From contig CAUJDF010000093.1 of assembly GCA_963169045.1 (NCBI GenBank), positions 62,001 through 126,000 of the forward strand: a DNA stretch of 64,000 nucleotides. Direction: 5' to 3'. Under the pieces are notes generated by a model. The model was not told where the DNA came from and did no database searches. It worked only from the letters and a program-made list of their open reading frames with translations. Shown here piece by piece: positions 3,287 through 59,873 of the stretch (position 1 is the stretch's first letter; each line of letters starts with the position of its first letter). The stretch is from Myxococcota bacterium. Its GTDB lineage: Bacteria; Myxococcota_A; Bradymonadia; UBA7976; UBA1532. A program made the position numbers and the translations under genes.

Positions 3287-5464
3287 ATGCACGTGGGGCG
3301 GGGATGGATCGCAGCGCTGGCGCTGGCTTCAGTGTTCGTGGCCTGCAAGGACGAGAGCGGCGGCGGTGACGACCCCCCGGCGGGCGACACCGACTCCGGT
3401 CCCGGCCCGCGCGGGGGCGGCGCCGGCGGCGACCGTGGGGTCGGCGGCGGCGGCGGGTCCGGCGGCGAGGGCGCCGGCGGGTCCGGCGGCGAGGGCGGCG
3501 CGGGCGGCGGCGGTCCGGTCGGCGGCGCAGGCGGCGAAGGCGGCGGCGGCGGCGGCGGCGCGGGCGGAGCGGCCGGCAGCGGCGGCGACGGCGGGGCCGG
3601 CGGCACGGGCTTCACCTGCGATCCCGGCCAGCAGCGGTGCCTGAACGAGGGCGAGCCGTTCGTCCAGGTCTGCAACGACGAGGGTCGCTGGGCCATCGAG
3701 CCGTGCGCCCCCGGCGGCGTCTGCGTCGGCAGCGCCTGCCTCCCCGATCCGGCGACCTGCGCGGGCGCGGATCGCATCTGCGCCAGCCGCGACACGCCGG
3801 CGGTCTGTCACCCCGGCGAGTCGTGGGAGCTCTTGCCGGCCTGCCCCGACGGCGACGTCTGCTTCGAGGGCGAGTGCGTCACCCGCGCCTGCGCGCAGGC
3901 CGCGGCGAGGCGCAGCTACCTCGGCTGCGACTACTTCGCCGCCGAGCTGCCGAACACGGCCATGGATCCGGCCGCCGGCACCACGCCCGATTCGCCCGTC
4001 GGCGTCGTCATCGCCAACCCCAGCGCCGACGCCCCGGTCGACGTGCGGGTGCTCGGCCCCGACGGTCGCCCGGCGCAGCTCATCGACCGTCGCGTGATCG
4101 GGGTGCCGAACATCCCCGGCGTCTTCATCAACGAGCCGCCGCACACCGTCAGCTCCGAGGTGCGCGACGCGACCGGGCGCGTGGTCGTGCCCGACATCGG
4201 CCGCGCCGATCCGGTGACCATCCCGCCGGGCGGCACAGGGACGTTCCTGCTGCCGCGCAGCGGACCGCCGCCGACGACGTCGGGCGTGTGGCGCTCGGCG
4301 CACCGCATCCGGACGACCGGCCCGGTGGCCGCGTACCAGTTCGCGCCGCTGTGCTGCAACTACAGCTTCTCGAACGACGCCAGCCTGCTGTTCCCCGTGA
4401 CGGCGCTGGGCACGGCATACAAGTTCCTCGGCGTGCCGACGTGGCAGGTGCCCGGCGATCTCGAGGGCAGCTCGTCGACGATCGCGATCATCGGCACCGC
4501 CGACGACACCGAGGTGCAGATCCAGCTCCCGCCCCGGGTCAACATCGTCCCCGAGGGGGGCCGCGCCGGCCGCCTGACGACGGCGGGCAACGGGGTGACG
4601 GCGCGCATCGGCGCCCACGAGGTGCTGCTGGTGCAGTCGGGCTTCGCGCAGGGCTTCGGCGGCAACCCGCCCGATCTGAGCGGCGCGACGATCACCACCG
4701 ACAAGCCGGTGGCCACGTTCAGCAGCCACCTGTGCTCGTTCTACCCGCAGATGCTGTCGGCCTGCGACCACCTCGAAGAGCAGCTCTTCCCCACCGGCAC
4801 GTGGGGCACCACGTTCGTGCTCGTGCCCACGGTGCGGCGGGCGCAGAACAACCGCGCCGCCGAATACACCTACTGGAAGATCATGGCCGAGCGGCCCGGC
4901 ACCCGGGTGACGCTCAGCCTGCCGTTCAACGACCTGCAGCCGCAGCGCCCCGGCTTCCCCGGCGTGCCCGACTGCCGCGACAAGCTCGCCGATCCGACGA
5001 CGCTGGTGCTCGACGGCCCGGGCTTCTGCGAGTTCGGCACGCGCATGCCGGTGCAGATCCAGGGCGACGGCAAGATGATGGTGATGGGCATCATCAGCGG
5101 GCAGGAGTCGACCGGCCTCAACGAGGCGGGCGCCCACGCCGGTGACCCGTCGATCTTCCTCGTCCCACCCGACCTCCAGTACCGCGACGACTACGCCTTC
5201 CTGACGCCGGGTACCTACGCGAACGACTACCTCACGGTGGTGGCCGACGCGGACACCGAGCTCCTGCTCGACGGACAGCCGCTGTCGCTCGCCGGAGGCG
5301 ACACGCAGGGCGTCCCGGGCAGCAACCGCGTGTTCCGCCACGTGACCCTCACGGACGGTCCCCACCGCATCACGGGCACCAAGCCGTTCGCCATCCTGGT
5401 GTTCGCCTTCGATGACTGGGTCAGCTACGCTTTCACGGGTGGGCTCAACCTCGAGAAGCGTTGA
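3287..5464 (+). CDS. IgGFc-binding-domain lipoprotein with Gly-rich linker (first of pair)
   Basis: A 725-residue predicted lipoprotein. The signal MHVGRGWIAALALASVFVAC has its lipobox Cys at position 20. A Gly-Gly-X low-complexity linker follows (~24-115), then Cys-rich motifs of the type CDPGQQRCLN and CVGSACLPD (~118-205). The large C-terminal part (~215-720) matches the IgGFc_binding N-terminal domain family, with YQFAPLCCNYSFSNDASLL, ATFSSHLCSFYP, CDHLEEQLFPTGTWGT and YAFLTPGTYANDYL. The domain is common in Myxococcota surface proteins; its ligand in bacteria is not known and the name comes from the human FCGBP protein. The start is ATG 3287 with GAGGGGAG upstream; the in-frame GTG at 3257 would bury the signal peptide. 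Its 3' end overlaps the paralogue that follows, so the two are probably translated together. Likely exposed on the outer membrane. Confidence 0.85.
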   Translation: MHVGRGWIAALALASVFVACKDESGGGDDPPAGDTDSGPGPRGGGAGGDRGVGGGGGSGGEGAGGSGGEGGAGGGGPVGGAGGEGGGGGGGAGGAAGSGGDGGAGGTGFTCDPGQQRCLNEGEPFVQVCNDEGRWAIEPCAPGGVCVGSACLPDPATCAGADRICASRDTPAVCHPGESWELLPACPDGDVCFEGECVTRACAQAAARRSYLGCDYFAAELPNTAMDPAAGTTPDSPVGVVIANPSADAPVDVRVLGPDGRPAQLIDRRVIGVPNIPGVFINEPPHTVSSEVRDATGRVVVPDIGRADPVTIPPGGTGTFLLPRSGPPPTTSGVWRSAHRIRTTGPVAAYQFAPLCCNYSFSNDASLLFPVTALGTAYKFLGVPTWQVPGDLEGSSSTIAIIGTADDTEVQIQLPPRVNIVPEGGRAGRLTTAGNGVTARIGAHEVLLVQSGFAQGFGGNPPDLSGATITTDKPVATFSSHLCSFYPQMLSACDHLEEQLFPTGTWGTTFVLVPTVRRAQNNRAAEYTYWKIMAERPGTRVTLSLPFNDLQPQRPGFPGVPDCRDKLADPTTLVLDGPGFCEFGTRMPVQIQGDGKMMVMGIISGQESTGLNEAGAHAGDPSIFLVPPDLQYRDDYAFLTPGTYANDYLTVVADADTELLLDGQPLSLAGGDTQGVPGSNRVFRHVTLTDGPHRITGTKPFAILVFAFDDWVSYAFTGGLNLEKR

Positions 5465-56917: not shown

Positions 56918-56974
56918 GCCCCGCTCGTTCCCTCCGAAGTGTTCGGCGCCGCCGCGCCCTGGGCGAGGCGGTCG

Positions 56975-57004
56975 TTGCGTCCCTCGCGCGGTCGTGGTGA
57001 TACT
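56975..57004 (+). promoter_or_regulatory. possible sigma-70 promoter for the cytochrome lipoprotein gene
   Basis: TTGCGT (56975-56980), 18-base spacer, GATACT (56999-57004). It lies 33 bases before the ATG 57038. Moderate match. Confidence 0.4.
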
Positions 57005-57037
57005 CGGTGCTTTCACTCTGGGGGGTGGGCAGTGGCG

Positions 57038-57946
57038 ATGACGTTCCGTCCACGGATCGTGGCGGTGGTTCTGGCCTTTCTCTGGGTCTCCGCTTGTGAC
57101 GATGCGTCAGAGGACGGCGGTTCCGGGGGAGGCGGGGCCGGTGGCGCGGGCGGTGTCGGCGGGGCCGGTGGCGCCGGCGGGGTCGGTGGGGTCGGTGGCG
57201 CCGGCGGGGTCGGCGGGGCCGGTGGCGCGGGCGGTGCCGGCGGGGCCGGTGGCGTCGGGGGGGCCGGTGGCGTCGGGGGAGCCGGTGGCGCCGGCGGTGC
57301 CGGCGGTGCCGGTGGCGCGGGCGGTGCCGGCGGTGCCGGTGGCTCGGGCGGTGCCGGTGGTGCCGGTGGCTCGGGCGGTGCCGGTGGTGCCGGTGGCTCG
57401 GGCGGTGCCGGTGGTGCCGGTGGCTCGGGCGGTGCCGGTGGAGCAGGCGGCGCCGGCGGCGCCGGCGGAGCAGGCGGCGTGGGCGGAATCGGCGGCGCAG
57501 GCGGAGCCGGGGGAGCAGGCGGCGCCCTGCCGCCCGCGGAGGCGGTTTGCGACGACCAGGCCGACGAGGATGGTGACGGCGCGATCGACTGCGACGACAG
57601 CGACTGCGCCGAGTCGCCGAGCTGCCAGCCGCCCCAAGGACTGACTCAGGACGACATCCAGGCGATCTTCGAGGCCGAGTGCACGCCCTGTCACATCCGG
57701 AACACGACCTTCGGCCTCAACCTCGCCAACGACTTCACGGCCACCACGTTCAACGTGCCGTCGCGCCAGTCGGAGCTCGACTACATCGAGCCGGGCGATC
57801 ACACCCGCAGCTTCCTCTGGCACAAGATCAACGGCAGCCAGCGCGACGTCGGAGGCGGCGGGCGCATGCCCGACAATGGACCGCCTTTCCTTGACCAGGA
57901 GACGATCGATGCGATCGGCGCCTGGATCGACGCCCTGCCGCACTGA
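57038..57946 (+). CDS. Gly-rich lipoprotein with C-terminal cytochrome c-type domain
   Basis: 302 residues. Lipobox WVSAC (Cys 20), then ~140 residues of Gly-Gly-Ala/Ser/Val repeats (~27-165), then a short Asp-rich segment (DEDGDGAIDCDDSDC) reminiscent of calcium-binding repeats. The C-terminal ~95 residues hold a heme c motif CTPCH (Cys 215, Cys 218, His 219) and GGGGRMPDNGPPFLD, whose Met can be the sixth ligand, as in class I cytochromes. The Gly-rich segment may extend the heme domain from the membrane, or be a nanowire-like spacer; that is inference. Start: ATG 57038 (GTG 57032 possible). Confidence 0.75.
   Translation: MTFRPRIVAVVLAFLWVSACDDASEDGGSGGGGAGGAGGVGGAGGAGGVGGVGGAGGVGGAGGAGGAGGAGGVGGAGGVGGAGGAGGAGGAGGAGGAGGAGGSGGAGGAGGSGGAGGAGGSGGAGGAGGSGGAGGAGGAGGAGGAGGVGGIGGAGGAGGAGGALPPAEAVCDDQADEDGDGAIDCDDSDCAESPSCQPPQGLTQDDIQAIFEAECTPCHIRNTTFGLNLANDFTATTFNVPSRQSELDYIEPGDHTRSFLWHKINGSQRDVGGGGRMPDNGPPFLDQETIDAIGAWIDALPH
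57341..57441 (+). repeat. 27-bp tandem repeat (about 3.7 units) in the Gly-rich linker
   Basis: Units begin at 57341, 57368 and 57395 and are identical; the fourth (57422) matches for 20 bases. Each encodes nine residues, Gly-Gly-Ser-Gly-Gly-Ala-Gly-Gly-Ala in phase. The whole Gly-coding stretch at 57119-57530 is a minisatellite-like tract of related 9- and 27-base units and could change length in frame. Confidence 0.8.
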
Positions 57947-58392: not shown

Positions 58393-59145
58393 TCACGCCG
58401 CGGCGTGATGGCGCCAGACGGCGTAACGCAACCGCCGCGTCCAGACCACTTCGGGAGGTGGGAGCCCGGCGCCCGCGGGCGGCGTTTCGGTCGGGGCGAG
58501 CTTCACGATCACACGGCGGCGAGCCACTCGGAGGGCGTCGGCCACCAACGCGGCATCGGGACGCCGGCATGGTGCGACGCTGCGCAGCAGTGTGAACGTC
58601 GGTGTGCTTCCCGCATCCTCGTCGGGGAAGGGCGGGTCCAGGTACACGTGGTCGACCGAGGCCGGGGACGCGGAGGCGAGCCACGTTGCGTGATCGGCGC
58701 GGCGCGCCGTGATGTGGCGCGCCAGCGGGCGCGCATGGCGCCAAAGCCCGTCGAGCGTGAACCAGGCGACGATGCCGAGCGCCTCGAGGCCGAGGACGCG
58801 CGCTCCGGCGGCCGCGAGCACCATCGCGTCGTAGCCGAACCCGAGCGTCCCGTCGATGACGGACTCGCCCGGCCGCAGGTCCAGCGCGCGCACGAGCAGA
58901 TCGGCGTGGGGCGCCTGAAGCCGCTGCGTCGTGAAGTTCGGGTGCCACCAACGGGGCGCCTCGCCCGGTACGTGCAGGCGGGGGCCGGTGGCAGTCAGCA
59001 CCAAGCCAGGGCGATCCGCTGGGAGGGGGCGCCGGAGCCACACCTCCGCTTGCGTCCAGAGAGCCAGCGCGTGCAGCCCACCGGACTCACGCGGTCCGCG
59101 CCGGCTCGCGGCGACGTAGAAGCGGGGACCTGCCTGGCCATTCAT
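58393..59145 (-). CDS. class I SAM-dependent methyltransferase, RsmJ-like
   Basis: 250 residues. Motif I VIDGTLGFGYDAMVLAAAGARVLGLEALG and motif IV DHVYLDPPFPDED fit SAM-dependent enzymes acting on nucleic acid bases; DPPFP with this DGTLGFGYD is similar to RsmJ (16S rRNA G1516). No signal. The start is ATG 59145, which follows the T tract of the predicted terminator by 29 bases. An upstream open extension to 59424 would cross the hairpins and is rejected. It precedes the small beta-rich gene by 13 bases. Exact target unproven. Confidence 0.65.
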   Translation of the reverse strand: MNGQAGPRFYVAASRRGPRESGGLHALALWTQAEVWLRRPLPADRPGLVLTATGPRLHVPGEAPRWWHPNFTTQRLQAPHADLLVRALDLRPGESVIDGTLGFGYDAMVLAAAGARVLGLEALGIVAWFTLDGLWRHARPLARHITARRADHATWLASASPASVDHVYLDPPFPDEDAGSTPTFTLLRSVAPCRRPDAALVADALRVARRRVIVKLAPTETPPAGAGLPPPEVVWTRRLRYAVWRHHAAA

Positions 59146-59486
59146 CTGTTGGGCGTCGGAGGTACCGAAGGGGAAAAAATGGGGACGGCAACGTCGGGCA
59201 TCCGCTGCCGTCCCCGGGGGGTGGAGGGCCGTCGCCGGGACAGCGTCGGCAACCTCCGTCGGTCCGAGTGTCGGGCATCCACTCGGACCGATGAAACGGC
59301 GTTGCCGGGCAGACAACGCCGCTTCGGGGGTTGGGCCCGCCTGCTGGCTGTCGGGCACACAGGACAGCAGGGGTGAGTGGGCCCGGAGCCAACATTGGAC
59401 AATCGTCCGAACGAAAGCAAGCAAAAATCCCCGATGCCGCGGCGCGCAAGAGCGCGCCTGGAACAGATCGCTGCTAGACTCGATTC
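59146..59486. other. 340-bp intergenic region between methyltransferase and fliN
   Basis: Contains the hairpin array (see ncRNA entry) and, at 59441-59458, a separate perfect hairpin GGCGCGC-AAGA-GCGCGCC shortly before fliN. Between them, 59391-59436 is AT-richer and may hold the promoters for both directions. No protein-coding signal seen. Confidence 0.7.
59174..59384 (-). ncRNA. candidate structured RNA: five hairpins with matching 9-base CCCGR loops and a terminator
   Basis: On the minus strand the RNA would show, in order: H5 (59340-59371, with an outer GGGCCC pairing), H4 (59297-59321), H3 (59259-59291), H2 (59223-59257) and H1 (59181-59215), then A and T6 (59174-59179). Each hairpin has a loop of exactly nine bases closed by G-C: TGTGCCCGA, TCTGCCCGG, GATGCCCGA, CTGTCCCGG, GATGCCCGA. 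The last five positions always read CCCGR. H1 with the T tract has the form of a Rho-independent terminator; its only non-canonical pair is a G-U on this strand and A-C on the other, favouring minus. It may be a small RNA, or the attenuating leader of the methyltransferase gene 29 bases on. I see no clear promoter. Confidence 0.65.
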
Positions 59487-59873
59487 ATGTCCGACATCCT
59501 GTCCAAAGAAGAGCTCGACGCCCTCCTCAGCGAAGTGCGCCGCGATGAGCCTGAAGAGGATCTCCCCGACGCGCCGGCGGTGCTCGCGCCGACCCCCGCC
59601 GTCGAGGCGCCCGAGCCACCAAACCTGCGCCTCATCCTCGAGATCCCGGTCGAGTTGCGCGTCGAGCTCGGCCGCACACGGATGACGGTCCACGAGGTGC
59701 TGCAGCTCGGGCAGGGCTCCGTCATCGAGCTCGACCGCCTCGCCAACGACGCCATCGACCTCACGCTCAACGGGCGCGCGATGGCGCAGGGAGACGCGGT
59801 GGTCGTGAACGAGAACTTCGGCATGCGAATTCTCGAGGTGGATTCGGTGCGCGACCGCATCCGAAAGCTTTGA
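59487..59873 (+). CDS. fliN: FliN/FliY-like C-ring protein with FliM-like N-terminal motif
   Basis: 128 residues. The C-terminal half (~50-128) is the SpoA/FliN domain (LEIPVELRVELGRTRMTVHEVLQLGQGSVIELDRLANDAIDLTLNG). The N-terminus reads MSDILSKEELDALL, the motif with which FliM, and FliY in some species, binds phospho-CheY. FliN normally forms the lower ring of the flagellar switch or the cargo pod of a type III secretion system. No other flagellar gene is in the window. The start is ATG 59487; a -10-like TAGACT ends six bases upstream and there is no ribosome site, suggesting a leaderless mRNA. Confidence 0.88.
   Translation: MSDILSKEELDALLSEVRRDEPEEDLPDAPAVLAPTPAVEAPEPPNLRLILEIPVELRVELGRTRMTVHEVLQLGQGSVIELDRLANDAIDLTLNGRAMAQGDAVVVNENFGMRILEVDSVRDRIRKL

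Follow-up and report, generated by a model that had tools for sequence, protein, structure and literature searches.

A family of candidate small RNA genes built from hairpins with a repeated UGCCCRA loop in uncultured Myxococcota

The CsrB, RsmX, RsmY, and RsmZ RNAs are terminator-ended hairpin arrays in which a short loop motif, GGA, is repeated. Their number of sites varies, they occur in more than one copy per genome, and they titrate CsrA or RsmA. Small intergenic RNAs with C-rich loops on at least two hairpins include 6C RNA of actinobacteria (two hairpins, with runs of about six Cs in their loops) and the cuckoo/ar14-type RNAs of alphaproteobacteria; these loops are thought to act by pairing. 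ANTAR elements, and the small RNAs that carry them, consist of two neighboring hairpins that present one and the same loop, with a terminator near the second. ANTAR loops have six nucleotides with A1 and G4. Among Myxococcota, the small RNA Pxr of Myxococcus xanthus is likewise built of stem-loops, of which it has three, and is detected by the published probe ACCGGAAGTGCTGAAGGGGTGGGGGG (PMC5568312).

Here, we describe a predicted RNA that shares features of these systems and differs from them in its motif. It was found in a 64,000-nucleotide stretch of DNA (the window) from an uncultured Myxococcota genome. Its loops have nine nucleotides and carry UGCCCRA, which sets them apart from the six-nucleotide ANTAR loops and from the stretch of Pxr covered by the probe, where UGCCCRA does not occur. 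Unlike CsrB and the Rsm RNAs, it has no repeated GGA in its loops (21 loops inspected). Unlike 6C and cuckoo/ar14 RNAs, its loops hold only three Cs, in a fixed UGCCCRA context and at a fixed length, and they accompany a different 5' unit in a different phylum. None of the 4227 Rfam families matches, and the window has no match at the gathering score. With the threshold relaxed to E values up to 1, six loci returned a single unrelated snoRNA-type chance match outside the array, and none to a Csr/Rsm model. We found no description of this RNA in the open-access papers searched. It is a new family, with a new motif, within the known class of hairpin-array RNAs.

The array comprises five hairpins on the minus strand (Table 1). 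Along that strand, from 5' to 3', the loops read UGUGCCCGA, UCUGCCCGG, GAUGCCCGA, CUGUCCCGG, and GAUGCCCGA, all closed by G-C. All five had been recognized in an earlier note, made from the sequence alone, as hairpins with nine-nucleotide loops ending in CCCGR; that note overlooked the mismatches of H2, the internal loop of H5, and the outer stem around H5. Its observation that two identical loops sit on differing stems (H3 and H1) holds. In the 5' unit, a 6-bp outer stem (GGGCCC/GGGCCC; 59384-59379 paired with 59338-59333) encloses a seven-nucleotide strand, ACUCACC (59378-59372), which faces a single C (59339), and the inner hairpin H5, with its loop UGUGCCCGA at 59359-59351 and a UC/C internal loop in its stem. 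H1 is followed by A and U6, forming an intrinsic terminator (A6 on the plus strand at 59174-59179). The note had read this run correctly, but the gap to the methyltransferase ATG at 59145 is 28 nucleotides, not 29.

Table 1. Features of the hairpin array and its surroundings, in window coordinates.
Feature	Position	Strand	Details
Putative sigma70-like promoter	59392..59420	minus	TTGCTT (59420-59415), 17 nt, CAATGT (59397-59392), 7 nt to GG start
Whole small-RNA gene (predicted)	59174..59384	minus	about 211 nt, from a predicted 5' end near 59384 to U6 at 59174
Conserved 5' unit	59333..59384	minus	outer stem, 7-nt strand, inner hairpin H5
Hairpin H4	59293..59325	minus	12-bp stem, one G-U; loop UCUGCCCGG at 59313-59305; R1 model 31.2 bits
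Hairpin H3	59259..59291	minus	perfect 12-bp stem; loop GAUGCCCGA at 59279-59271; R1 model 29.5 bits
Hairpin H2	59223..59257	minus	imperfect stem with mismatches; loop CUGUCCCGG at 59243-59235; R1 model 24.1 bits
Hairpin H1	59174..59215	minus	13-bp stem, one G-U; loop GAUGCCCGA at 59202-59194; R1 model 30.2 bits
Methyltransferase gene (PF04445, SAM_MT)	58393..59145	minus	directly downstream; Pfam E = 4.3e-16; not part of the RNA
fliN-like gene (PF01052, FliMN_C)	59487..59873	plus	divergent; marks the conserved junction; Pfam E = 9.3e-24; orthologues in relatives

Such an array is not expected by chance. Folding of the minus strand gives -129.3 kcal/mol (z = -7.8), a value equaled by none of 200 shuffles, while the plus strand of the same region folds only moderately well (z = -2.95). 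Hairpins with nine-nucleotide loops of this class arise at an estimated 0.06 per 211 nt in the rest of the window. In the array region, five candidates pass the loop-class filter (four of the named hairpins and one spurious; H5 fails the stem filter), against at most three such hairpins in 5000 Markov shuffles.

Using covariance models, we detect nine such genes, with two to five hairpins each, in six genomes from four genera, all within the uncultured Myxococcota family to which the window belongs. The earlier note had called for a covariance search of Myxococcota genomes, and the homologues lie both at the same junction and elsewhere. Four of the nine occupy the fliN/methyltransferase junction (the window genome, G000, together with G002, G009, and G007), and five are found at other loci (G000:C56, G002:C437, G009:C297, G008:C171, and G012:C77). 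A single-hairpin model (R1) retrieved the window array, a strong second site in the window genome (C56:5956), and the junction sites of G002 and G009. A two-hairpin model, based on the common form read from these first matches, added the G007 junction, C437, and C297, and a third model added C171 and C77. Within the window array, covariance-model matches span 59284-59384 (76.9 bits) and 59173-59257 (36.9 bits). The 5' unit (outer stem, seven-nucleotide strand, and inner hairpin) is common to seven of the nine genes and is followed by one to four further hairpins, the last of which doubles as the intrinsic terminator. The window's own unit recurs at the G002, G009, and G007 junctions and at C56, and in tandem in the four-hairpin copies C437 and C297; C171 and C77 represent a divergent three-hairpin form.

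A DNA search of 38 relatives with the whole region returned only short matches apart from itself, so the RNA evolves too quickly to be traced by sequence similarity. Covariance searches of 379 genomes from the phylum and 57 from the class gave no further match at E 0.01, under stricter filters that distant members could escape. The FliN-neighbor loci of 80 named genomes yielded only the G002 and G009 copies already known, and a single-protein scan of genome contigs yielded nothing. Weak R1 matches in other genomes (L065 and L067-L069) looked like chance on inspection, most of those in the window genome fell inside coding frames, and the motif was absent on reading from two weak matches to the two-hairpin model (G280 and G063). 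As far as searched, the predicted family thus appears restricted to one family of uncultured Myxococcota. In G005 and G011, the methyltransferase gene lies next to fliN and the array is absent. Just before the methyltransferase ATG at the array-free G005 junction (L006, about 1948-1960) stands GGTCCACTC, nine bases that also form the 5' end of the C56 copy; this could be chance or the trace of an array since lost.

The stems of these RNAs vary by compensatory change. In an alignment of eight units, 17 of 27 base pairs have changed on both sides and 97.1% of cells are paired; with 12 units, these values are 21 of 27 and 97.4%. The pair counts are somewhat inflated by the fitting of both alignments to the structure of the model; the covarying helices also form in folds of individual sequences. 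The covariation score for 12 units is 0.615, compared with 0.242 for shuffled alignments (0 of 500 shuffles reach it) and at most 0.167 when the partner is slid, and both helices of the 5' unit (1 and 2) covary. The loops, by contrast with the freely changing stems, are fixed. Nearly every hairpin carries the consensus NNUGCCCRA on a G-C closing pair, and among 21 aligned loops the columns count U3 19, G4 20, C5 21, C6 21, C7 20, R8 21 (16 G and 5 A), and A9 17. Looser variants fall outside this count: CCGCCCUA, the last loop of both C437 and C297, and, in the G008/G012 form, two loops (UGCCCAA inside a longer loop, and GCCGCCCAU). A search by eye for a conserved internal partner of the loops found no GGGC kept in all copies. 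Related sequences hold 12 G-U pairs on the array strand versus one A-C, which identifies the minus strand as the one that is read; the earlier note had seen a one-strand preference of this kind in H1.

Promoter-like hexamers precede the first stem by 5 to 9 nucleotides in all nine copies. Their scores range from 6.5 to 9.5, with seven of the nine at 7.5 or above; among random sites, 6.5 marks the 95th percentile and 7.5 the 99th, and the weakest copy (G007) sits at the 95th. The window site, for which an overlapping register (TTGCTT-15-TCCAAT) can also be read, scores 7.5, level with the 99th percentile of random sites in the window. When G008 is compared with G012, conserved sequence runs from the -10 region to just past the U run, with an A-rich block upstream, diverging flanks, and compensatory differences within stems. 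C437 and C297 show the same pattern. At five of the nine copies (C56, C437, C297, C171, and C77), the next gene downstream is convergent and encodes a Mpo1-like, acyltransferase, or asparaginase-ankyrin protein, so the RNA would be a gene of its own. Judged from these sequences, the locus has the makeup of a small RNA gene ended by an intrinsic terminator: a promoter-like site, a conserved structure, a terminator, and a free-standing position. We hold with high confidence that this is a conserved RNA gene.

Several further elements were observed around these genes. Upstream of C437 and C297 (L079, about 3655-3690; L080, about 1095-1128), a conserved block, AAAGTAGATNNTGTAAACAT, stands where a clear TTG -35 element is expected; it may mark another type of promoter or the site of an activator. 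The G008 and G012 copies (L086/L087) share an identical stretch, CAATAGAAGAAAAAGAG, about 100 nt upstream amid diverged sequence; this stretch resembles the UP element of a strong promoter. At window positions 59465-59487, fliN orthologues carry a CTAGAATG-like sequence near the start codon, which suggests a -10 element with a very short leader. Elsewhere in the window (56939-57946, plus strand), a gene encodes a long glycine-alanine-valine repeat of the GGAGGVGG type, followed by a cysteine-containing C-terminal region.

We propose that the RNA acts in trans as a multivalent binder. Each loop would offer one binding site, and valence would be set by the number of hairpins (two to five). The partner would most likely be a putative RNA-binding protein that recognizes UGCCCRA and is titrated by the RNA, much as CsrA is by CsrB or RsmZ but through a different motif. 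At the window locus, where the array happens to precede the methyltransferase gene, read-through of the terminator may incidentally contribute to expression of that gene. A titrating RNA would need just such a design, with the same loop repeated two to five times on stems that are unrelated. CsrA is encoded in the window genome, but we set it aside as the partner because no GGA is conserved in the loops. We found no mRNA in which this loop recurs as a target site, and most of the remaining single-hairpin matches fall within coding frames. The earlier note's picture of a terminator-ended RNA presenting repeated sites is strongly supported as regards the repeated loop and the terminator, given the homologous arrays, covarying stems, fixed loops, and promoter-like sites; that the loops bind a partner is something we infer. 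We give about even credence to a stand-alone small RNA with a repeated recognition loop that acts in trans, most likely by titrating a putative RNA-binding protein. Our more specific and tentative suggestion is a multivalent titration RNA for a putative UGCCCRA-loop-reading regulator; this would give Myxococcota a second protein-sponge system, independent of CsrA.

Base-pairing RNAs, too, typically have C-rich loops, which counts against titration. The RNA could instead be a trans-acting base-pairing RNA whose loop, UGCCCRA(C), is a seed shown several times that pairs with (GU)YGGGCA in targets; we regard this as possible, if short of probable. The loop is unpaired and rich in C, its conservation reaches into the closing C to give an 8-nt block, and the alternation of G and A at position 8 would suit a target U. 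In the start regions of 943 heuristically predicted genes (1.26 Mb, about 14% of the genome), TCGGGC and CGGGCA rank fifth and seventh lowest of 60 same-composition 6-mers, which weakly fits avoidance of stray pairing. Yet start regions show no excess of the loop complement (TCGGGCA, 4 observed versus 10.3 expected; TTGGGC, 3 versus 4.0), and the G-rich YCGGG complements that the earlier note proposed to seek there are depleted. The ribosome-binding sites of the genome are GGGAGG-like rather than GGGC, and broad targeting of translation starts by the loops is unsupported. Hfq (PF17209) is absent from all 14 genomes searched, with controls positive, which does not fit an Hfq-dependent small RNA; M. 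xanthus also lacks Hfq (PMC5684412). A protein partner is therefore favored over broad mRNA pairing, since the complement is not enriched near starts and Hfq is absent.

The remaining explanations deny the RNA an independent role. In four genomes, the array ends about 10 to 30 nt before the start of the same-strand methyltransferase gene, leaving little room for another promoter, as would suit a cis-acting leader or attenuator whose transcript ends in H1 unless termination is prevented. But we see no pairing that would compete with the terminator, G005 and G011 keep the methyltransferase beside fliN without an array, and five of the nine copies have no adjacent same-strand gene downstream. Because the next gene at these five is convergent, attenuation of the methyltransferase operon, which the earlier note had raised, is not supported as the main function, and we consider it unlikely. 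The modular array, its variable copy number, and its presence at unrelated loci might also point to an element acting as DNA, such as a repeat, a protein-binding cruciform, or a mobile cassette. This is highly improbable, as G-U pairs are retained on a single strand, which also holds the U run and the promoter-like sites, the stems are not copies of one another, and the two strands fold differently. Lastly, an open frame (59424-58393; 343 amino acids from TTG) runs through the array and into the methyltransferase, and it could be read as an N-terminal extension of that protein. Between relatives, the number of hairpins varies and the linkers show gaps of a single base, so the array is not coding; copies at other loci lack such a gene, and substitutions track base pairing. 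We attach a negligible probability to a coding function.

The preferred reading is thus a trans-acting, probably protein-titrating RNA, and the family is an undescribed one with unusually clean evolutionary evidence. Its hosts have large, uncultured Myxococcota genomes without Hfq, in which almost nothing is known of post-transcriptional regulation. With its loop fixed while the stems change freely, the RNA offers a defined bait for finding the partner, whether protein or RNA. If the partner is a protein, these RNAs would add another example of the hairpin-array sponge design, one that uses a new recognition motif.
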